From positions 1-43,568 of the forward strand of contig LJUJ01000009.1 in NCBI GenBank assembly GCA_001303785.1: a stretch of DNA of 43,568 nucleotides, in the 5' to 3' direction. Every line of letters begins with the position of its first letter. Within the stretch, counting starts at the first letter, position 1. Positions 25,509-41,110 of this stretch are shown here, piece by piece. The translations under genes and the position numbers were made by a program. A model generated the notes under the pieces. The model worked only from the letters and a program-made list of their open reading frames with translations. It searched no databases and was not told where the DNA came from. The DNA comes from Caldifarciminota bacterium SM23_42 (GTDB lineage Bacteria; Hydrothermota; Tepidihabitantia; SM23-42).

Positions 25509-25657
25509 AAATTCTAGTTTGTCCGAAATGCAAGGGCGAACTTGAGTATGACAGGAAGAACGAAGAATTGATATGCCATAAATGTAAACTGGCATACGGA
25601 ATAAAGGATGATATACCGATAATGTTGATTGAAGAAGCGAGGAAATTAGATGCTTAG
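25487..25657 (+). CDS. Trm112-like/UPF0434 small zinc-ribbon protein
   Basis: This 56-residue gene starts at ATG 25487 behind an excellent AGGAGG and ends at TAG 25655-25657. It begins [19 protein letters not shown] and continues with a second pair, CHKC, then [15 protein letters not shown]. This is the YcaR/Trm112 pattern: two CxxC pairs and a conserved aliphatic-D-x-P-x-[ML]-x-x-x-E-A end. Trm112 stabilises methyltransferases in eukaryotes and archaea. The bacterial short form has no firm role, though it often lies among envelope or lipid A genes. It overlaps the glycosyltransferase by 22 nt and the C25 protease by 8 nt. Confidence 0.9.
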
Positions 25658-28600
25658 CTCAATTTTTATCGTACTGATCGTAGGTAACACAACGATTAGT
25701 GAATTAGGTACTACTGGGGTCGAGATATCGTTTTCGATGCCGGAAGTCAGGCGGGAGGACTACTCGTTCCCAGAAGCAATGTGGTTGAACAAATCTGGTG
25801 AGCCTAATCTTCCGTCTCTTTTGTACAAGGTTGGTATTCCCCAAGATGGCGACGTAGTGGTCACGGTTGTGGGGCATGATGAGACTGTTTTCCGCAATGT
25901 GGTCGTTGACCCTGTATACTATGTGGCGGTGGACGAGGAGCCTCTCGGCGAAAAGATTGATTTCCATGGTGAGGTCTACAAACTGAATGCGTTGTTCCCG
26001 GACAGACTGATCGACGTGTCGAAACCAGGTTATTTCCGCGATCTGTATACAGTTGATGTACGTATCAATCCGGTGCGCTACAATCCAATCACCAAAGAAC
26101 TTAGAGTAACGAGAAATGTAAGAATCGAAATAAAATTCAGGGGTCAGCCTAAGGTAGGCGGCGCGGTAGATGCCGCGTACGACGATATCTACGAGCGGAC
26201 CATAGTCAACTACCGTCAATGTAGGAATTGGCGACGTATTGCCAGACCACTGCGGCAAAATCCCTTTGTTGGTGCAACGTGGTATAAGATCGAGGTCGAG
26301 GATGAAGGTATTTATAGGATAGGGATGGATGAACTCACAAATGCAGGTCTCGATCCTGAACAATTCGACCCCAGAACCATGAAGATCTACACCGCGCCGT
26401 TTGATGTTTTACCACGCACAGTGCCCATGCCTGATTCGCTCGACTCGTTGATTCAAATTCCCGTGTACGTTTACGGCGAGGAAGACGGCGTGTTCGATCA
26501 GAATGACTATCTTATATTCTACGGCTATTCAGCCAGTCACTTTGTTCCCGCTACTGATGTCGTTTGGTTTGAGAACGGATATGCACTGAGCAATGTCTAT
26601 TGGTTTACGTTCGGTGGGGCCGATGGTTTGAGAATGGAACAAGTGGATGCCCAATGGGATGGTACAACACCAGATACGACTGTCAATGCCATCGTCCATA
26701 ATGAGATTGACCTGGGTAATCCAACACGTTCCGGTACAAACTGGTATTGGGCAGATGTCTCACCCCTCAGTTCAGATATGGGCAGTGCGCAAATCACTAT
26801 CGGGCATCCAGAAGCGGCAGGCATGGCACAGGTAAGGGTTGCTATGTTTGCGCTAAACAGTGCTCAGTTCTGGTATCGCTTCTCGATCAACGGGGCAACT
26901 TTCTTCAACGACACACTTTATATACCAGCACAACCGCAGATGCCGCCCATATTCCTGACGGGCACGGGTGCACTGACGGGCGACAGCTCGGCTCTGTTGT
27001 TCGAAGTAATGCGTCCGGCGGGGGTGATGACTAGTCTTGAGGAGTTTCTCAACGCTGTGGATATTAGTTATGAGCGTAAGGCCAGGCTTAATAAACCATT
27101 CCATGTATTGTTCACGGCAACCACAAGCTACTCGGTAAAATGCACCGAAGTCGAAACGGAACCTTTCGTACTCGACATCACTGAACTGAACCTTCCCAAG
27201 ATGCTGTCCAACCTCACGATTGGGGGAAGCGTCATGCAATTATCCGGCGCGGTCGATTCTTTTCAAATGCTCTATTTTTCCAAACTTTCACTTGCGGAAA
27301 CGGCTGAACTACAGCCGGCGAGCCCGGGAAGATTACGTACACAGGGTGATGGTTGTGAATACATTGTGATTACACACGAGGATTTCTACACCGCGATTAT
27401 GCCTTTAGTTGAATACCGAAGTCGCGAGTACTTGACAAAACTGGTTGTTGTAGATGACATCTATGACGATTTTGCTTTTGGTAAGTACGACCCATTGGCA
27501 ATAAAACACTTTCTATACTACACCATGAACAACTGGTCGCCGTACCCCAAGTATGTGTTGCTGGTCGGTGACGCTACATATGATTATAAAAATAATCTAG
27601 GAAAAGACAATCCACCTAACTTCGTACCCATGTACGAGTACGGTACGTACTTGTCGGGTAGCCCCGTATTCTCCAATAATAGCCTTTACGAAGGGGAATA
27701 TGTTAATTTCGGTCAAGGAGAGGTCATGTGTCTAGGGAGGATCACGGTGCGCTCGCGACAGGAGGTGAGAGATTACATCGACAAAGTAGTTACCTATGAG
27801 ACGGGCGATATCGTGGGTCCATGGACAAAGCGGGTGTTGCTTACCGCCGATGATGAGTATGCTTATGGATTTGAATATCCGACGATACATACAGGAGCTT
27901 GTGAACGTAACAGTGATAATATCCCTGATTCGCTGTATGACTTTGCGAAGGTTTACATGATCAGCTACCCGCCACTGGGTGCGGGAACTGCGGAGAAGGC
28001 AAATGCCCGAGAGGCATTTATCCGTGAGTTCAATAGGGGGGCACTCATGGGTATCTTTTATGGGCATGGCAATACACATCAACTCGCTCATGAGGTGCTG
28101 TTCTTGAGCCCCTACGTTGGCCGCCTCAACAACGGTCGAAGATATCCTTTCTTTTATTTCGGTTCATGCAATGTTAGTCGGTTTAACGATTCCGACTTCG
28201 AGTGTCTAGGTGAGGAATTCGTGCGTACCCGGGACGGGGCAATTGGTACGATCGGATGCACGGCAGGAAGCTATTCAGGTGAGAATGAGGTAATCGGTGG
28301 ACGATTATGTGCGAGCATCACAGATCCCGATACGACTTTGACCATGGGCGAGTGTAGTGTGATTGCCCGTGGTGGTTACTGGACGCGGCAATATCTGCTT
28401 ATTGGTGATCCGGCGACAAGATTCAGGAAGATGTATCACCCGATGTATCTCGCGAGCTCGCCAGATTCGGTAAGGCCGATTGAGAGACTGGGAGTGGTTG
28501 CGGACAACGAGCGTTACCACTTGACGGCGTCTGTACGCGATACAACAATAATTGATAAATTTGATGCGAGTACGGCAGATAGGATAAGTGGACGTGTGGG

Positions 28601-29471
28601 AAGAGACGTGCAGACAGGCAGCAGTTCATACATATACTACGAATATGCCATCGATGGCAAACAGGTGTATGTTGGTTATTGGGATAATGACACGGCGACG
28701 ATAATCGCGCCGAGAGTTTCTACTACGCATCTCCCGGTGATAAAGTTGAGTAGCGTCTATGGGGATCAGAGTGGTCTGCTCGACTCATTGCGCGTTTATG
28801 GTACAGCGATGCCAACGGCCGATAATACGGGCCCGGAGGTTGCCCTCTACGCAGGCGGACGCTTGTTGAAGGATGATGATTGGGTAAGCAAGCAGTTTAC
28901 GTTGAACGGGCGTGTTGCGGATAGCAGTGGCATTAATCTCTTGTACTCGGTGGAGAGTACGAATGGATTCTATCTCTACATCAACAGCGACCTCGATAGT
29001 AAGATCGATTTGCGTGATTATTTCTACTACAATAAGAATTCCTTTACGAGTGGAGAGTTTAGCGTGGAGATCGATTTGCCTGAGGCCGTAGATACTCTCA
29101 CGATAAATGTTGTTGATAATAACTTCAATCAGACGGTGTACAGACTCGTACTCAACACCGAAGTGTTTGGTCAGATTGCATTTGAGGATTTTCTTGTCTA
29201 TCCGAATCCGCTGCGTACCGATGGAGGTTCATGGTTCACGTTCAATCTCACCAGATCGGGGCTGGTTCAATTGAAGATATTCACAATAGCCGGCCGATTA
29301 ATCAAAACCATTGATAATGTATCCTGCACGGTTGGTTACAACCAAGTATATTGGGATGGGTTGGATAATTTTCAAGACGAGATAAGCAACGGGGTATATA
29401 TTGTTAAGGCTTTTGTCGAAGCGGATAATTCTCGAGCTGAGGTGATTGAGAAATTCATTATTGCACGATAA
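25650..29471 (+). CDS. C25 (gingipain-type) cysteine protease with C-terminal sorting domain
   Basis: This is a large exported protease, 1273 aa. Residues 1-15 form a short signal-like stretch, and about 20-190 resemble the gingipain propeptide region. A beta-rich region follows to about 560, and the C25 catalytic domain spans about 565-930. Its catalytic pair is visible as His806 in FYGHGNTHQ and Cys840 in [10 protein letters not shown], with [11 protein letters not shown] and [15 protein letters not shown] around them. The last 85 residues are a FlgD-like/type-A sorting fold ([35 protein letters not shown]). This indicates surface delivery by a type IX-like system, though no such secretion genes are in this window. 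The start overlaps the Trm112-like gene, with GAGGAAA upstream. Confidence 0.92.
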
Positions 29472-33468: not shown

Positions 33469-34365
33469 TTAGTTTCTTGAAATAACGACGCCCAGGGCGA
33501 TTGAATTCAGTTTAGTTGCCGGATCATCGGCACGTGAAAGCATGATTATTGGTCGCTGAGCGCCGACCACCATGCCGGCAGCTTTTGTGTGGGCAAAATA
33601 CATCAATCCCTTTGCCCAAATATTGGCCGTCGAGATGCTGGGCATGAGTATGAAATCAACGTCGCCGGCAACTGGACTCTCAATTTTCTTTATCGCTGCA
33701 GCCTTTCTTGAAACGGCCACGTCGAAGCCGAAAGGCCCATCAATAGTACAACCGCCTATTTGCCCGGCTCTATTCATTTCGACGATTTTGACCGCGTCCA
33801 CGGTTTCGGGCATGTCTGGGTTGATCGTCTCGCTCGCGGCGACGAGGCCGATTTTCGGTTGCCGGATTCCCATCGTTCTTAGGGCCTGAACCGCGTTTTT
33901 CACTATCTCGATCCTGGTCGCGAGGTTCAGTTTTGGGTTCATGCCGCCATCTGACATGAATAACAACTTATGGTAGTCGGGAATCTCAAACGCCGCGATG
34001 TGACTCAGTATTTTCTCGCTACGCAGTCCCCAATCCTTGTTCAGAACACCTTTCAGGAATGCCGATGAGGAGAGCATGCCTTTCATCAAGAAATCGCCTC
34101 TTTCCTTGACCACAGAAATCGCTTTGATTAACGCCTTCCCCTCGTCGGGTTCGTCGTGTATATCACATTTTGTAGCATCGAGTTGAACTGTTTTCGCAAT
34201 TTCGGTAATTTTTGCTCTGTCGCCTACCAATACCGGGACGATAAGGCCTAGATCGTGAGACAGTCGAATGCCTTCGAGTAACGCATCATCTTCGGCACAC
34301 ACGACGACACATCGCTTCTTGCCTTTGCGTTTAGCCGATGCTATGAGTTTTTCAAATGATTTCAT
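33469..34365 (-). CDS. ptb: Phosphate butyryltransferase-family protein
   Basis: The enzyme exchanges an acyl group between CoA and phosphate, giving acyl phosphate for ATP formation. The 298-aa protein matches the Pta/Ptb family: VVVCAEDDALLEGIRLSHDLGLIVPVLVGD, LMKGMLSSSAFLKGVL, LFMSDGGMNPKLNL, DGPFGFDVAVS and DFILMPSISTANIWAKGL. The last motif and the lack of extra domains favour butyryl- over acetyl-transferase, but acyl specificity cannot be fixed from sequence. No butyrate kinase gene is beside it. It lies 73 nt after hisC and before mfd on the same strand. Confidence 0.85.
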   Translation of the reverse strand: MKSFEKLIASAKRKGKKRCVVVCAEDDALLEGIRLSHDLGLIVPVLVGDRAKITEIAKTVQLDATKCDIHDEPDEGKALIKAISVVKERGDFLMKGMLSSSAFLKGVLNKDWGLRSEKILSHIAAFEIPDYHKLLFMSDGGMNPKLNLATRIEIVKNAVQALRTMGIRQPKIGLVAASETINPDMPETVDAVKIVEMNRAGQIGGCTIDGPFGFDVAVSRKAAAIKKIESPVAGDVDFILMPSISTANIWAKGLMYFAHTKAAGMVVGAQRPIIMLSRADDPATKLNSIALGVVISRN

Positions 34366-34438: not shown

Positions 34439-35524
34439 TCAGAGAATCTTCTTAAGCGTTTTAATCAACTTTCTATTCTGTTTTTCGGTGCCAATGGTGA
34501 TGCGCAAGGCATTAGGGAAACCATATTCTTTGATGGTTCGGGCAATTATGCCATGCCTCTGAAGGGATTCGAAAACCGTCAGACTATCTTTGTTGAAATC
34601 AACGAAAACGAAATTCCCGTATGTAGGGACATAAAAGAGTCCCAACTTCTCATAGGCATCATAGAGAAATTCTTTACCTGCCTCGTTTATCTTACGACCA
34701 TTTTCCACGTGTTCATAATCATCGAGTGCAGCTAGCCCGGCATGTTGTGAGATCCTATTTACATTGAACGAGATTCTCAACTTCATTAAGTTGGAGATGA
34801 TTTCACTATTGGCAAAACCATAGCCCAGTCTCGCACCAGCAAGTCCGTATATTTTCGAAAAAGTACGTAGAATTACTATGTTCTTTCCTTCATAAAGATA
34901 TTTCGATGAGTCTGGATAGTCAGGGTGATTAATATACTCATAGTATGCCTCGTCCAATATTACGAGAATGTTTTCAGGAATTTGCTTCAAGAATTTATCA
35001 ATTTCGTCTTTGGTTACCATTGTTCCTGTGGGGTTGATAGGGTTATCAATGAAGATCAGCTTGGTATTGCTTTTCACAGCATCAAGCATTGCCTTTAGAT
35101 CATGGGCATAATTCTTTTGGGGTACTTCGATTAGTTCTCCGGCTGCGATCTTTACTGCTATCTTGTACCAGATAAACGAACCTTTACTCACAATCGCACT
35201 GTGTCCAGGTCCAAGATAGGCCAGGGTTATGAGTGGCAGGATTTCGACTGACCCATTGCCGACAATTGTATTTTCCTGTTTGAAATTAGTTCTTTCAGCC
35301 AATTTTCTCCTCAGGTAGAAGCAGTTATCGTCTGGGTAAAGGAAGGATTCATTCAGCGCTTCCTTCATTGCCCGCAGCGCGAGAGGAGAAGTACCCAGCG
35401 GATTTTCGTTAGATGCTAATTTGATTATTTCGCCTTTCAAATTGAGTTCTCTGATAACCTCTTCAATGGGTTTCCCAGGTTTGTATGGTCTGATTTTTCT
35501 TACGAAATCTCTTGCTTCAATCAT
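34439..35524 (-). CDS. hisC: Histidinol-phosphate aminotransferase-like PLP enzyme
   Basis: This is a fold-type-I aminotransferase of the HisC family, 361 aa from the ATG at 35524. I prefer this start over an ATG six codons upstream because the promoter -10 box ends 7 nt before it. Visible features are LASNENPLGTSPLA, the substrate-cofactor residues NGSVEILPL, DNPINPTG, VILDEAYYEY (Asp and Tyr contacts of PLP), the Schiff-base lysine in RTFSKIYGLAGARLGYG, and the final NALRITIGT with its carboxylate-binding Arg. No other his genes are nearby, so it may instead act on aromatic or other amino acids. Confidence 0.85.
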   Translation of the reverse strand: MIEARDFVRKIRPYKPGKPIEEVIRELNLKGEIIKLASNENPLGTSPLALRAMKEALNESFLYPDDNCFYLRRKLAERTNFKQENTIVGNGSVEILPLITLAYLGPGHSAIVSKGSFIWYKIAVKIAAGELIEVPQKNYAHDLKAMLDAVKSNTKLIFIDNPINPTGTMVTKDEIDKFLKQIPENILVILDEAYYEYINHPDYPDSSKYLYEGKNIVILRTFSKIYGLAGARLGYGFANSEIISNLMKLRISFNVNRISQHAGLAALDDYEHVENGRKINEAGKEFLYDAYEKLGLFYVPTYGNFVFVDFNKDSLTVFESLQRHGIIARTIKEYGFPNALRITIGTEKQNRKLIKTLKKIL

Positions 35525-35531
35525 GCTTAGA

Positions 35532-35559
35532 AGTATATCCATAATCTTCGAAAATGCAA
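35532..35559 (-). promoter_or_regulatory. hisC promoter, TTGCAT-16-TATACT
   Basis: On the minus strand the -35-like box is at 35559-35554 and the -10 box at 35537-35532, 7 nt from the ATG at 35524. The arrangement is the same as for ftsE and the LpoA-like gene, with no Shine-Dalgarno sequence. Confidence 0.65.
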
Positions 35560-35798: not shown

Positions 35799-35844
35799 TA
35801 ATAAGACCTATTTGGGCAATTATGCAATAAAAGGAGAATTCACC

Positions 35845-38589
35845 ATGCTACATAAATTGTCCGCAGAGCCACACAAGACGAAAATTATTCAGAAATTACC
35901 ACTGACGACATATCAGCAGCGTCTAAAGCATCTAAAAAACGTATACTATAACACATTTAACTTGCGTTCTGATAGAGTGACCTTTGATTTGACAAGCAAC
36001 GGCACGTCAGCTATGTCGCAGGGACAGCTTTCTGGTATTTTAATTGGTGACGAGGCATATGCAGGCAGCAGAAATTTCTTATTGTTGGAAAGTGTTGTGA
36101 AAAAGATCTTAGGTCACACCATGATTATTCCAACCCACAATATTTTGGGTGCAAAGAAATTGATTGCGAAAGTGTTGAGGAAGAACAATGGCGTGATATT
36201 AACAAACAGCACATTGGTTGAGAATATTTTTCACGACAATCAGATGAAAAATATCAATGTCAAAGAAACGGTTCCCTTAAGTAATGTAGAACCCGCAGGG
36301 TTCACTGGTTCTATTGATATAGATAGGCTCAATAAGTCGATTAGCGAGTATAGTCCCGATGGTATAGCTTTTATTCTGATTGAGACTTGTCCTCCTTCTT
36401 CACACAGCCAGCCCTTTTCTCTGAAAAATTTGAGAGACACGTGTAACATTGCCAAAAAGCACCAGATACTTACTGTACTGGACATTTCATTTATTGTTGA
36501 GAATGCGGCGTTTATTATCAACTTTGAAAACAGCAGTAGTGAAGAATCAGTTGGCAAATTAGTGAAAGAAATGGTAAGTGAGGTAGATATTACCATAATG
36601 AATGCAGCTGAGGATTGCCGGTCCAATGTCGGTGGTTTCATAACCACAAATCTGAAAGACCTTGCCGAGAAGCTGAAAAACCAGGTCGTCGTATATGAAG
36701 GATTGCATACATACGGCGGCATGGCAGGGCGAACTATGGAAATCGTAGCGCGTGGTTTGCAGGAGATGGTTGACGAACGGTCTATCAGCTGGAAAGTGGC
36801 TCAGATTGACCGCTTGTACCAGCAACTAAGAGAGAAGCGTGTACCATGTATAAGGGGAGGGAACGGCATTTATCTTCGAGTGAAAAATTTCTTGCCTCAC
36901 CTTAAATCTGAAGAATATCCAATATTCGCACTGTCATCTGCGCTGTACCTGGCCGGTGGACTAAGGACTACTATCGACGCGAAGTATGAAGAATTGATGA
37001 AATCAGAAAAATCCCAAACGCTTGGATGTGAGATACCGTGGGATTCCTTTACAGACCAACATCTAGATCATATCGCCAGGGCGATTATCGATCTACACGA
37101 AAACCGGAATAGGATACAGGGCTTGAGAGCGTCGACCGTCGGGCTGTGGACTGATGAGTTCAAGTTCAAAACCAAAGATGAAGATCGACCTCTCTGTCCA
37201 GTAATGAGTGAGCTCGAAGAGCATAATTTTGAGCCTTGGAAGATTGTTGCTATTGAACATATCGGCTTTACTAACCGGAGACACAGGGAAAATGCGGCAA
37301 AAGAAGCAGGCTATAACACGTTTCTACTTAAATCCGAAGATGTGGGTATTGATGCCTTGACCGACAGTGGAACATCGGCGATGTCCCTTGAACAGTGGTC
37401 CAAGATGTTCATGGCCCATGAGACACCATACTTCAGTAAGGATTACGAAGAATTCATTGCGGCCGTTAGAGAAGTCTTTGGGTATGAATATGTAATGCCA
37501 ACCCATCAGGGACGTGCTGCCGAACATATTTGTTCACAAACATTGATTAAAGACGGAGATAGTGTTCCGGGGAACATGTACTTCACCACCACCAAGCTTC
37601 ATCAGGAATTGGCTGGCGGGCAATTTGTTGATGCTATTGTTGATGATGCACATGATCCTGATAGTACTTTTGAGTGGAAGGGAAACGTTGATCTAAACAA
37701 GATAGCAGATTTGATCAAAAAGGTTGGGTCTGACCGCGTTCCCTATCTAAGTTTCGAAACTTGTGTTAACATGGCCGGCGGGCAGCCCGCATCTATGGAC
37801 AATATGCGAGAGGTCTACGAGTTTTGCGGAAAACATGGCATATTGGTTCTCTTTGATGCAACCCGATGTGCTGAAAATGCTTATTTCATTAGAAAGAAGG
37901 ACCCGCGATACAAGGGCACCGCGATTAGGGACATACTCCGAGAGATGATGTCATATGGCGACGGGTGTACGGTTAGTAGTAAGAAAGACTGTTTGGTGAA
38001 TATATGTGGATTCTTTGCGGTTAACGATCGTAAAATTTTCGAGAGGGCACAGAACTTGCTGCGAATCTACGAAGGCACGTATACTACTGGTGGCTTATCG
38101 TGTCAGGATTTGTCAGCACATACCCAAGGTGTGAAAGAGATGCTGGACTATAACTATATCCGTGCAAGAGTTGAACAGACGCAGTACCTCGGCAACAAGT
38201 TGATCGAGGCAGGCATTCCCATCGTCAGACCGCCAGGGAGTCATGCTATCTTTCTAAATGCAAGGAAGTTTTTTGACCATCTGGATCAGGATGAATACCC
38301 CGCCCAAGTGCTTGCCATTGAAATATTCATAGAAGCCGGGATTAGAACCATGGAACGGGGTAACGTCTCAAAAGGAAGAGACCATGTCACGGGCAAGAAT
38401 TACCGGCCTAACCTTGAACTAGTGAGAATCACCCTGCCACGAAGGGTCTATACTAATTCGCATATGGATGTTATTGTGGATGCAATTAAGAATGTATACA
38501 AGAAGCGACATGCTACAAAAGGATTGAGATTTGTATATGAACCAAAAGAGTTGAGATTTTTCCAGGGGCGTTTCGAATATATTTCTTGA
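35845..38589 (+). CDS. Double tyrosine phenol-lyase-like protein: degenerate N-terminal copy fused to an intact C-terminal copy
   Basis: Start ATG 35845 has AAGGAG upstream (914 aa); usual lyases are about 460. The C-terminal half (about 464-914) has all the catalytic features of tyrosine phenol-lyase/tryptophanase: GNMYFTTT, PLP-contacting Asp671 and Arg674 in FDATRCAENAYFI, Schiff-base Lys714 in SSKKDC, and Arg838 in MERG. By spacing to the carboxylate-binding Arg861, Arg838 equals Arg381 of tyrosine phenol-lyase, which tryptophanase lacks, so tyrosine phenol-lyase activity is more likely. The N-terminal half (about 25-440) aligns along its length but reads NAAEDC at the lysine site (Glu256) and LDISFIVENAAFI at the Asp/Arg site. 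It is probably inactive and structural or regulatory. Confidence 0.88.
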   Translation: MLHKLSAEPHKTKIIQKLPLTTYQQRLKHLKNVYYNTFNLRSDRVTFDLTSNGTSAMSQGQLSGILIGDEAYAGSRNFLLLESVVKKILGHTMIIPTHNILGAKKLIAKVLRKNNGVILTNSTLVENIFHDNQMKNINVKETVPLSNVEPAGFTGSIDIDRLNKSISEYSPDGIAFILIETCPPSSHSQPFSLKNLRDTCNIAKKHQILTVLDISFIVENAAFIINFENSSSEESVGKLVKEMVSEVDITIMNAAEDCRSNVGGFITTNLKDLAEKLKNQVVVYEGLHTYGGMAGRTMEIVARGLQEMVDERSISWKVAQIDRLYQQLREKRVPCIRGGNGIYLRVKNFLPHLKSEEYPIFALSSALYLAGGLRTTIDAKYEELMKSEKSQTLGCEIPWDSFTDQHLDHIARAIIDLHENRNRIQGLRASTVGLWTDEFKFKTKDEDRPLCPVMSELEEHNFEPWKIVAIEHIGFTNRRHRENAAKEAGYNTFLLKSEDVGIDALTDSGTSAMSLEQWSKMFMAHETPYFSKDYEEFIAAVREVFGYEYVMPTHQGRAAEHICSQTLIKDGDSVPGNMYFTTTKLHQELAGGQFVDAIVDDAHDPDSTFEWKGNVDLNKIADLIKKVGSDRVPYLSFETCVNMAGGQPASMDNMREVYEFCGKHGILVLFDATRCAENAYFIRKKDPRYKGTAIRDILREMMSYGDGCTVSSKKDCLVNICGFFAVNDRKIFERAQNLLRIYEGTYTTGGLSCQDLSAHTQGVKEMLDYNYIRARVEQTQYLGNKLIEAGIPIVRPPGSHAIFLNARKFFDHLDQDEYPAQVLAIEIFIEAGIRTMERGNVSKGRDHVTGKNYRPNLELVRITLPRRVYTNSHMDVIVDAIKNVYKKRHATKGLRFVYEPKELRFFQGRFEYIS

Positions 38590-38717: not shown

Positions 38718-39704
38718 ATGACCAAGTTGCTATCGAAAGACGATGTGATGAGTGTTCTTGACATGGAGGACACGATCACAGTCCTTGAAAATGCATTCTC
38801 TGACTTGGCAACCGAAAATGCGGTGATGCCGCAACGAACCCCGATCACTTCACCCGACCACAATGGATTGGCGCTATTCATGCCGGCATACCTCAAGGGT
38901 ATGGGTGCGCTTGGTGCCAAGGTCGTGACCGTGTACAAGCAAAATCCTGCCAAATATAAGATGCCCACCGTACTCGGTACGATCATTCTGCTGGAGGAGA
39001 AGACGGGTGCGCCCATTGCGGTCATGGACGGTGGGTATCTTACGGCGATGCGTACGGGCGGCGTTGCCGGACTTGCCACTAAAATACTCGCTGCCAAGGA
39101 TGCTAAGGTTCACACCCTAATTGGTACGGGCGGAATGGCCAGGACACACGCTTGGGCGGTTGATTGTGCACGTAAGATTGAGAAATTGTATATCTATTCG
39201 ATCGATCCAATTGAAAGCCGCGAAGCGTTCCGCGATTCGCTGAAAGATATCATCAGTTGTGAGATCCTGCTGGCTAATGAGCCTGCTCAGGCGGTCAAAG
39301 AAGCGGATATCGTGACGATCATCACGAGTGCCAAAGACCCGGTTGTGAACGGTGATTGGTTTAAGCCGGGCACGCATATTAACGGCATTGGTTCACATGC
39401 TCCAGCAATGAGGGAACTGGATTCGAAGACGGTCATGAAGTCGAAGGTGGTCTGCGACCTCGTCGATGCTTGTAAGGCAGAAGCAGGTGATTTCATCATT
39501 CCGGTCGAAGCTGGTGAATGGAGTTGGGACAATGTTCACGGCTCACTGGGCGATGTCATTACCGGTAAGATACCAGGCCGTGAAAACGATGATGAGATCA
39601 CCCTGTTCAAGAGCGTTGGACTGGCGATTCAGGATATCTCAACTGCGTTTCATGTCTACAACAAGGCGGTTGAAATGGGGGTCGGCTCGGATTTTAGCTT
39701 TTGA
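38718..39704 (+). CDS. Ornithine cyclodeaminase/alanine dehydrogenase family (mu-crystallin fold)
   Basis: This NAD(P)-dependent enzyme belongs to the OCD/Mu-crystallin family, 328 aa. AGGAGG precedes the ATG. The substrate-side Lys is in GALGAKVVTVY, the nucleotide-binding loop is GTGGMARTHAWA, and the catalytic Asp is in KSVGLAIQDIS near the C-terminus. The family includes ornithine cyclodeaminase (ornithine to proline and ammonia), archaeal-type alanine dehydrogenase and imine reductases, and I cannot separate them here. Its position 128 nt after a lyase that forms pyruvate and ammonia makes alanine formation from those products attractive, but this is inference. Confidence 0.87.
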   Translation: MTKLLSKDDVMSVLDMEDTITVLENAFSDLATENAVMPQRTPITSPDHNGLALFMPAYLKGMGALGAKVVTVYKQNPAKYKMPTVLGTIILLEEKTGAPIAVMDGGYLTAMRTGGVAGLATKILAAKDAKVHTLIGTGGMARTHAWAVDCARKIEKLYIYSIDPIESREAFRDSLKDIISCEILLANEPAQAVKEADIVTIITSAKDPVVNGDWFKPGTHINGIGSHAPAMRELDSKTVMKSKVVCDLVDACKAEAGDFIIPVEAGEWSWDNVHGSLGDVITGKIPGRENDDEITLFKSVGLAIQDISTAFHVYNKAVEMGVGSDFSF

Positions 39705-40300: not shown

Positions 40301-40327
40301 ATGTTGTGCCTATTGGAGAACTGTGCA

Positions 40328-41110
40328 ATGCTTGTAAATAAGCGAAAATCATTGGGTCAAAATTTCTTGACGAAATCTCATTTAGCAGCGTCGTTGCTGG
40401 ATGAAAGTTCGATTAGCATAGAGGATATCGTATACGAGATGGGTCCAGGCACGGGCATGTTAACAAAAGAGTTGGGTAAGAGAACTAGGAAGGTAATCGC
40501 TATTGAAAAGGATTATGATCTGTTTAGGACCTTAAAGAAGAAATTCCGACTCAACGATAATGTTGTTTTATATAATGCCGATTTCTTGAAATTCAAGATC
40601 AACGAATCCTGTTACAAGATCTTTGCGAATATTCCATTTAACATAACGACAGCTGTTATTAGAAAAATAGTCTATGCCGCAAAACCGCCAGTAGAAGCAT
40701 ATCTTATAGTACAGAAGGAAGCTGCCGAGAAATTCATTGGTGCACCGAAAACCACCCAGTCTTCGGTATTAGTAAAACCATGGTTTAGGCTAAAGATAAT
40801 CTGGTCTTTTAAAAGAACCGATTTCTCACCAGTTCCGAGTGTGTGTGTCGTTATGCTGCACATCGAGAAAAGGGCTACTTCCTTAATTTCGCCAAGGGAC
40901 CGTCACATCTATGAAAGATTCATTAGATGTGGTTTCGGTGCGTCGAGGAAAAACTTGAAACTGAACTACAAAAACATCTTCAGTCATAACCAATGGAAAA
41001 AAATATCACGTGATCTTGAGTTTTCTGTTCGTGCGAAGCCGTCGGAATTACGCTTTAGACAGTGGCTAGGTCTGTATGTATTTTTCAAAAGAAATATATA
41101 CAGGTATTAA
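40328..41110 (+). CDS. Erm-type 23S rRNA (adenine-N6)-methyltransferase
   Basis: This SAM-dependent enzyme is of the KsgA/Erm family, 260 aa from the ATG at 40328 (GGAG about ten bases upstream). It has LGQNFL at the start, SAM motif EMGPGTG (37-43), the acidic IAIEKD strand, and the catalytic N-I-P-F at 101-104 in IFANIPFNITTAVIRKIV. The middle and C-terminal parts (AYLIVQKEAAEKFIGAP, FKRTDFSPVPSVCVVMLHIEKR) match the actinobacterial Erm pattern rather than KsgA. Such enzymes methylate A2058 and give macrolide-lincosamide-streptogramin B resistance. The long leader with leader peptide and hairpins suggests inducible control. Horizontal transfer is possible but not shown. Confidence 0.85.
   Translation: MLVNKRKSLGQNFLTKSHLAASLLDESSISIEDIVYEMGPGTGMLTKELGKRTRKVIAIEKDYDLFRTLKKKFRLNDNVVLYNADFLKFKINESCYKIFANIPFNITTAVIRKIVYAAKPPVEAYLIVQKEAAEKFIGAPKTTQSSVLVKPWFRLKIIWSFKRTDFSPVPSVCVVMLHIEKRATSLISPRDRHIYERFIRCGFGASRKNLKLNYKNIFSHNQWKKISRDLEFSVRAKPSELRFRQWLGLYVFFKRNIYRY

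Follow-up and report, generated by a model that had tools for sequence, protein, structure and literature searches.

The 43,568-nucleotide stretch of Caldifarciminota bacterium SM23_42 analyzed here (contig LJUJ01000009.1, phylum Hydrothermota; hereafter the window) contains a single uninterrupted open reading frame on the forward strand (positions 35845-38589) that encodes a 914-residue protein made of two complete tyrosine phenol-lyase (TPL) domains. This architecture is conserved in four other genomes, both halves are under purifying selection, and the halves have lost active-site residues reciprocally. Judging from the residue pattern, we consider it likely (probability roughly 0.78) that the fused chain forms a covalent pseudo-dimer with a single composite active site, to which the N-half would lend the catalytic tyrosine.

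The gene is preceded by an AGGAG motif (35832-35836) located 8 bases upstream of its ATG. The presence of two full-length lyase domains, claimed in the preliminary description, is confirmed by both Pfam and NCBIfam models, each of which matches in two stretches. The Pfam matches are to Beta_elim_lyase, with a weak match to Aminotran_1_2 and nothing else listed, and the protein is not a member of the glycine decarboxylase family models. TIGR02618 (tyrosine phenol-lyase) has its best match at residues 463 to 911 (model positions 2 to 450 of 450), and its score of 938.4 bits, which sums both halves, lies above the cut-off of 720.7; the tryptophanase cut-offs are not reached (646.5 versus 825.8 bits for TIGR02617 and 713.6 versus 750 bits for NF053783). 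Residues 6 to 428 match TPL with an E value of 1.8e-69 and residues 462 to 913 with one of 1.5e-159. From TPL identity and predicted fold, together with the residue comparison for the N-half, we delimit an N-half of about residues 1 to 445 (35845..37179, forward strand, as are all features of this gene) that has a TPL fold with a degenerate PLP site and about 32 to 33% identity to TPL, an approximate linker of residues 446 to 461 (37180..37227), and a C-half of residues 462 to 914 (37228..38586) that by itself retains the full PLP and substrate site and has ∼51% identity to the C. freundii enzyme. The predicted C-half aligns to TPL with a Z score of 58.2 and an rmsd of 1.2 over 440 residues, and the N-half, which had been said to retain the overall fold, is indeed predicted as a full TPL fold (Z score of 49.0, rmsd of 2.2 over 439 residues). 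Glycine decarboxylase was absent among the matches listed in these fold searches. The full-length prediction reached a pTM of 0.74, and since one TPL chain accounts for a TM-score of only 0.48, part of the model confidence concerns the arrangement of the halves; confidence is low around residues 458 to 475, in the linker region.

Fused proteins with 79, 78, and 73% identity to that of the window were found in three genomes (G022, G021, and G080), and one with 44% identity was found in a fourth (G135). Among 147 genomes of the phylum, 5 carry the fusion, a rare and patchy distribution. None of the four homologues has a stop between the halves, as an assembly fusion would have predicted. No fused member was found in the genomes sampled outside the phylum, and a scan of an 84,980-species collection, with strict peptide patterns that would miss G135-like proteins, recovered only the three closer homologues, which lie on two MAG contigs named Candidatus Stahlbacteria (JAUWLY010000071.1 and JAUWGT010000052.1) and one that its submitters named Candidatus Cloacimonadota (SOKD01000256.1). 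Matches on viral contigs included no fusion, all being single-chain lyases of ∼460 residues, and the eight plasmid matches listed each cover one lyase length. In diverged pairs, dN/dS was ∼0.09 to 0.11 for the N-half and 0.03 to 0.07 for the C-half, rough values given that synonymous sites are near saturation, and purifying selection acts on both halves.

We aligned both halves of the five fused proteins with C. freundii TPL and single-chain relatives. In the C-half, Lys714 (37984..37986, the Schiff-base lysine), Asp671, Arg674, and Arg838 (38356..38358, phenol specificity), all present as first described, correspond to K257, D214, R217, and R381 of TPL. All five C-halves keep 19 of the 19 positions that a TPL subunit presumably supplies to its own site, a list we drew from general knowledge of the enzyme, and K257, D214, R217, N185, R404, Q98, R100, S51, S254, and F123 are each present in all of them; this last set is incomplete in the N-half. 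The N-half substitutions in the preliminary description were equally correct, with Glu256 (36610..36612) at the Schiff-base position and Phe216 at the arginine position, and the glutamate is shared by all five fused proteins. Besides the lysine, Ser51, Gln98, Phe123, Asn185, Arg217, and Arg404 are gone from every N-half, as are Thr124 and Met379, and Asp214 is kept. A working PLP site built on a second lysine elsewhere in the N-half is unlikely given the loss of the first six of these, which leaves most of the PLP pocket missing.

The C-halves in turn lack two tyrosines that the N-halves retain. Tyr71 is replaced by Pro, Thr, or Leu and Tyr291 by Thr or Asp in 5 of 5 C-halves, and both are kept in 5 of 5 N-halves. 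The N-half tyrosines lie in the loops GDEAYAGSRNF (residues 68 to 78; 36046..36078), where Tyr72 equals TPL Tyr71, and EGLHTYGGMAGRTME (residues 285 to 299; 36697..36741), where Tyr290 equals TPL Tyr291. Their degenerated counterparts in the C-half are at residues 525 to 531 (37417..37437), where Pro528 replaces the tyrosine, and at residues 742 to 753 (38068..38103), where Thr745 and Thr748 replace Met288 and Tyr291. Position 288, which is Thr in the C-half, is Leu in the N-half and also in the nearest single-chain relatives.

The partner-contacting tyrosines of tryptophanase and indole-lyase we take, from general knowledge of the family, to be equivalent to TPL positions 71 and 291. This equivalence is supported for Tyr71 and for the neighboring position 288 (PMC3870968, PMC5805759). 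In the catalytic dimer of Escherichia coli tryptophanase, the PLP phosphate of a subunit is hydrogen bonded by Tyr74 and Tyr307 of its neighbor (PMC2770544), and in Proteus vulgaris tryptophan indole-lyase, the leaving group receives a proton from Tyr72*, a residue of the opposite chain in the catalytic dimer (PMC11301627). In TPL itself, the phenol carbon is protonated by Tyr71 (PMC9262865), and the Y71F substitution leaves the enzyme inactive (PMC11301627). These neighbor-contact roles identify the N-half motifs DEAYAGSRNF and YEGLHTYGGMAGR as the two loops that enter the partner's active site; the earlier reading of them as a fold pattern was right that they are retained but incomplete, as they are cross-subunit loops that the C-half has lost. 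Likewise, the picture of a dead half joined to a live one covers only part of the case, as the live C-half is itself incomplete without Tyr71 and Tyr291.

An unbiased scan, in which residues were not picked beforehand, covered 185 positions invariant in seven single-chain proteins of the TPL clade. Nineteen were lost in all five C-halves; of these 19, the five N-halves all retain 11, every one of which falls in the Tyr71 and Tyr291 loops. Fisher's test gave a P value of 0.0067 with columns treated as independent, and a shift test that preserves column clustering gave a weaker result (14 of 184 shifts; P of ∼0.08). Taken alone, the statistics of reciprocal loss are modest, the five fused proteins representing about two independent lineages; the strength of the case is in which residues were lost and kept and in the recurrence of the pattern in a lineage at only 44% identity. 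As a control, we checked 34 single-chain lyases with Met379 and Arg381, TPL among them, and all 34 have Tyr71, Tyr291, and Lys257 together.

We propose that a TPL gene was duplicated and fused and that the copies then specialized by reciprocal loss. The C-half would bind PLP through Lys714 and hold the substrate carboxylate and ring, and the N-half, having lost productive PLP binding, would act as a permanent dimer partner that lends Tyr72 as the proton donor to the leaving group and Tyr290 as a PLP phosphate contact. Each chain would then have one composite site, where an ordinary catalytic dimer has two, the mirror-image site having disappeared on both sides. The preliminary suggestion of a pseudo-dimer with half the sites is thus well supported, by the reciprocal loss, the unbroken homologues, and the loss of the N-half pocket. 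Because the C-half lacks Tyr71 and Tyr291, catalysis is predicted to require the N-half, which would then be more than a tethered partner, and neither half is expected to cleave tyrosine by itself. Two fused chains probably pair through a noncatalytic interface to give a pseudo-tetramer with two sites that mimics the TPL tetramer, a proposal made because the family is tetrameric. The phenol-specific residues of TPL are T124, M288, M379, R381, and F448 (PMC5805759), and four of these five positions (T124, M379, R381, and F448) are present in the C-half; they suggest that the substrate is tyrosine or a close analogue, and the likely reaction would split L-tyrosine, or a compound near to it, into a phenol, pyruvate, and ammonia. 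We infer the placement of the composite site within one chain, as well as the quaternary structure and the substrate, from these comparisons.

The same residue pattern would also be compatible with composite sites formed between chains, the N-half of one pairing with the C-half of another and the fusion securing one-to-one stoichiometry. The model is least confident near the linker, as this arrangement would allow, but the pTM of the single chain weakly suggests a preferred intrachain arrangement, and we regard sites between chains as unlikely, though worth keeping in view. It is rather improbable that, in an obligate single-chain pseudo-heterodimer whose halves are each catalytically dead alone, the vacated pocket of the N-half, where Glu256 is invariant, has in addition been reused for a second role such as ligand sensing or conformational control of the one remaining site. 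Loss of Tyr71 and Tyr291 alone need not imply a partner, because at least eight single-chain lyases of other subgroups lack both and have Lys257. Such subgroups, with Phe71 and with Ser, His, Gln, or Glu at position 291, lend some weight to a C-half that acts alone on another substrate needing neither tyrosine, with the N-half as a structural or regulatory partner. S-alkyl-cysteines, which have better leaving groups, would be substrates of this kind. Against this stand the retention by the N-halves, in two lineages, of exactly the two loops that the C-halves lost and the retention by the C-half of the phenol-specific Thr124, Met379, Arg381, and Phe448, and we consider the C-half acting alone to be improbable. 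The idea, raised in the preliminary description, that the dead half binds a regulator controlling the C-half is very doubtful: we found no positive evidence for it. The Glu that all 5 proteins have in place of the lysine, the retained Asp214, and the purifying selection on the N-half could speak for such a role, but we identified no new ligand pocket that is conserved, the two lineages have different residues in the pocket, and the lent loops and the interface explain the selection on the N-half. An assembly artefact or a decaying pseudogene, for which nothing speaks except the lysine loss, can be dismissed, given the open frame in five assemblies, one at 44% identity, the strong purifying selection on both halves, and the conserved downstream gene.

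In a tree of the halves together with single-chain lyases, the C-halves form one group inside the TPL clade (support of 83/85) and the N-halves cluster together as a long-branched group (88/69), which fits a single duplication and fusion followed by fast change of the N-half, with long-branch effects possible. Directly downstream of the fused lyase in 4 of the 5 fused genomes is a gene of the ornithine cyclodeaminase/alanine dehydrogenase family (in the window at 38718..39704, forward strand; PF02423), the best solved relatives of which are delta1-pyrroline-2-carboxylate reductase and alanine dehydrogenase. The other conserved neighbors are a divergently oriented HisC-like aminotransferase (34439..35542, reverse strand; TIGR01141) and a phosphate acetyl/butyryltransferase-like gene (33469..34365, reverse strand; PF01515). 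In three close relatives (G018, G010, and G011) the gene order is HisC-like aminotransferase, single-chain lyase, phosphate butyryltransferase-like gene, and mfd; in the window no single-chain lyase separates the aminotransferase from the phosphotransacylase, and the fused lyase and its partner gene lie beside the aminotransferase in divergent orientation. These gene orders suggest that the fused enzyme took the place of the single-chain one in a syntenic locus. The Mfd proteins of G022 and G080 have 64 and 46% identity to that of the window, and these values are exceeded by both the fused lyase (79 and 73%) and the partner protein (87 and 79%), which suggests that the lyase-dehydrogenase pair was transferred between lineages, the alternative being slow evolution of the pair. 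The gene content would be consistent with a role in amino acid fermentation, in which the lyase yields pyruvate and ammonia alongside a dehydrogenase and an acyl-phosphate-forming enzyme. The G135 homologue (L047:1155-3851, reverse strand) lies in a region of 66% G+C without dehydrogenase, aminotransferase, or phosphotransacylase neighbors; the fused enzyme is therefore also found outside the conserved cluster.

Other lyases and genes were noted in passing. Sixteen single-chain TPL-like lyases from related genomes (L007-L009, L012, L015-L018, L021, L023-L025, L041, L046, L064, and L065) have Leu in place of Arg217 and Arg in place of Lys256, with Lys257 intact; they look like a distinct subgroup by these residues, and several sit in an aminotransferase-lyase-phosphotransacylase operon. 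The genome of the window encodes a further single-chain lyase of 496 residues (L051:11426-12913, forward strand), 16 kb downstream of the end of the fused gene, and a short one of 416 residues (L052:5601-6848, reverse strand) that lacks the Met379-Arg381 segment. Also in the window are an rRNA adenine dimethyltransferase (40301-41110, forward strand), borderline between Erm (216.8 bits; cut-off of 212) and RsmA/KsgA (169.5 bits; cut-off of 171), which may be a housekeeping enzyme, and a PorU-type sortase of the type IX secretion system (25650-29471, forward strand; 448.9 bits, cut-off of 420), in a genome whose relatives carry the name Candidatus Stahlbacteria and not Bacteroidota.

TPL is used as a biocatalyst for tyrosine and L-DOPA, and the single, asymmetric site of a fused form would allow each interface to be mutated separately. 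The reciprocal loss amounts to a natural complementation experiment, in which the sequence predicts for each residue whether its role lies inside a subunit or across the interface. The fused lyase also makes it testable why fold-type-I PLP enzymes repeatedly evolve a dead partner and whether reducing two coupled sites to one alters kinetics.

Among known systems, the closest in sequence is TPL (EC 4.1.99.2; C. freundii structures 1tpl and 2ez1, E. herbicola structure 1c7g), with which the C-half shares all own-site residues and the N-half shares the fold. TPL is a homotetramer of identical 456-residue chains that each hold PLP and lend Tyr71, whereas the fused lyase splits these roles between its halves: the C-half lacks both Tyr71 and Tyr291, and the N-half has both but no lysine. 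By the family model and its own-site residues the C-half passes as a TPL, and the whole protein does not consist of identical, mutually complementing subunits. Tryptophanase (EC 4.1.99.1) has the same fold and dimer logic, with Tyr74 and Tyr307 lent across the interface (PMC2770544), but the C-half of the fused lyase has Thr124, Met379, Arg381, and Phe448 and scores under the tryptophanase cut-offs. Polyketide synthases carry Beta_elim_lyase (SH, thiocysteine lyase) domains within longer chains (9cen; LnmJ type) (PMC3870968), but these combine one live lyase with carrier domains, have no dead twin, and share 16 to 20% identity in structural alignments. In the glycine decarboxylase P-protein (GLDC), a dead N-half has Gln in place of the lysine and a live C-half carries the lysine (PMC7259800); two fold-type-I PLP domains occupy one chain of ∼1,000 residues in an arrangement like that of Glu256 and Lys714. 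GLDC belongs to another PLP family, catalyzes another reaction, and has the lipoylated H-protein as its partner; by analogy it is the nearest precedent for fused dead and live halves. In serine palmitoyltransferase, of the alpha-oxoamine synthase family, a subunit without the PLP lysine pairs with a catalytic one in the LCB1/LCB2 heterodimer, but in most organisms the two are encoded by separate genes. No report of a fused TPL or tryptophanase was found in the open-access literature, in agreement with the initial statement that no fused lyase is described, as far as aromatic beta-eliminating lyases are concerned. Fusion of a dead and a live fold-type-I domain is thus already known from GLDC, and what is new, as far as we found, is its occurrence in the aromatic beta-eliminating lyases.
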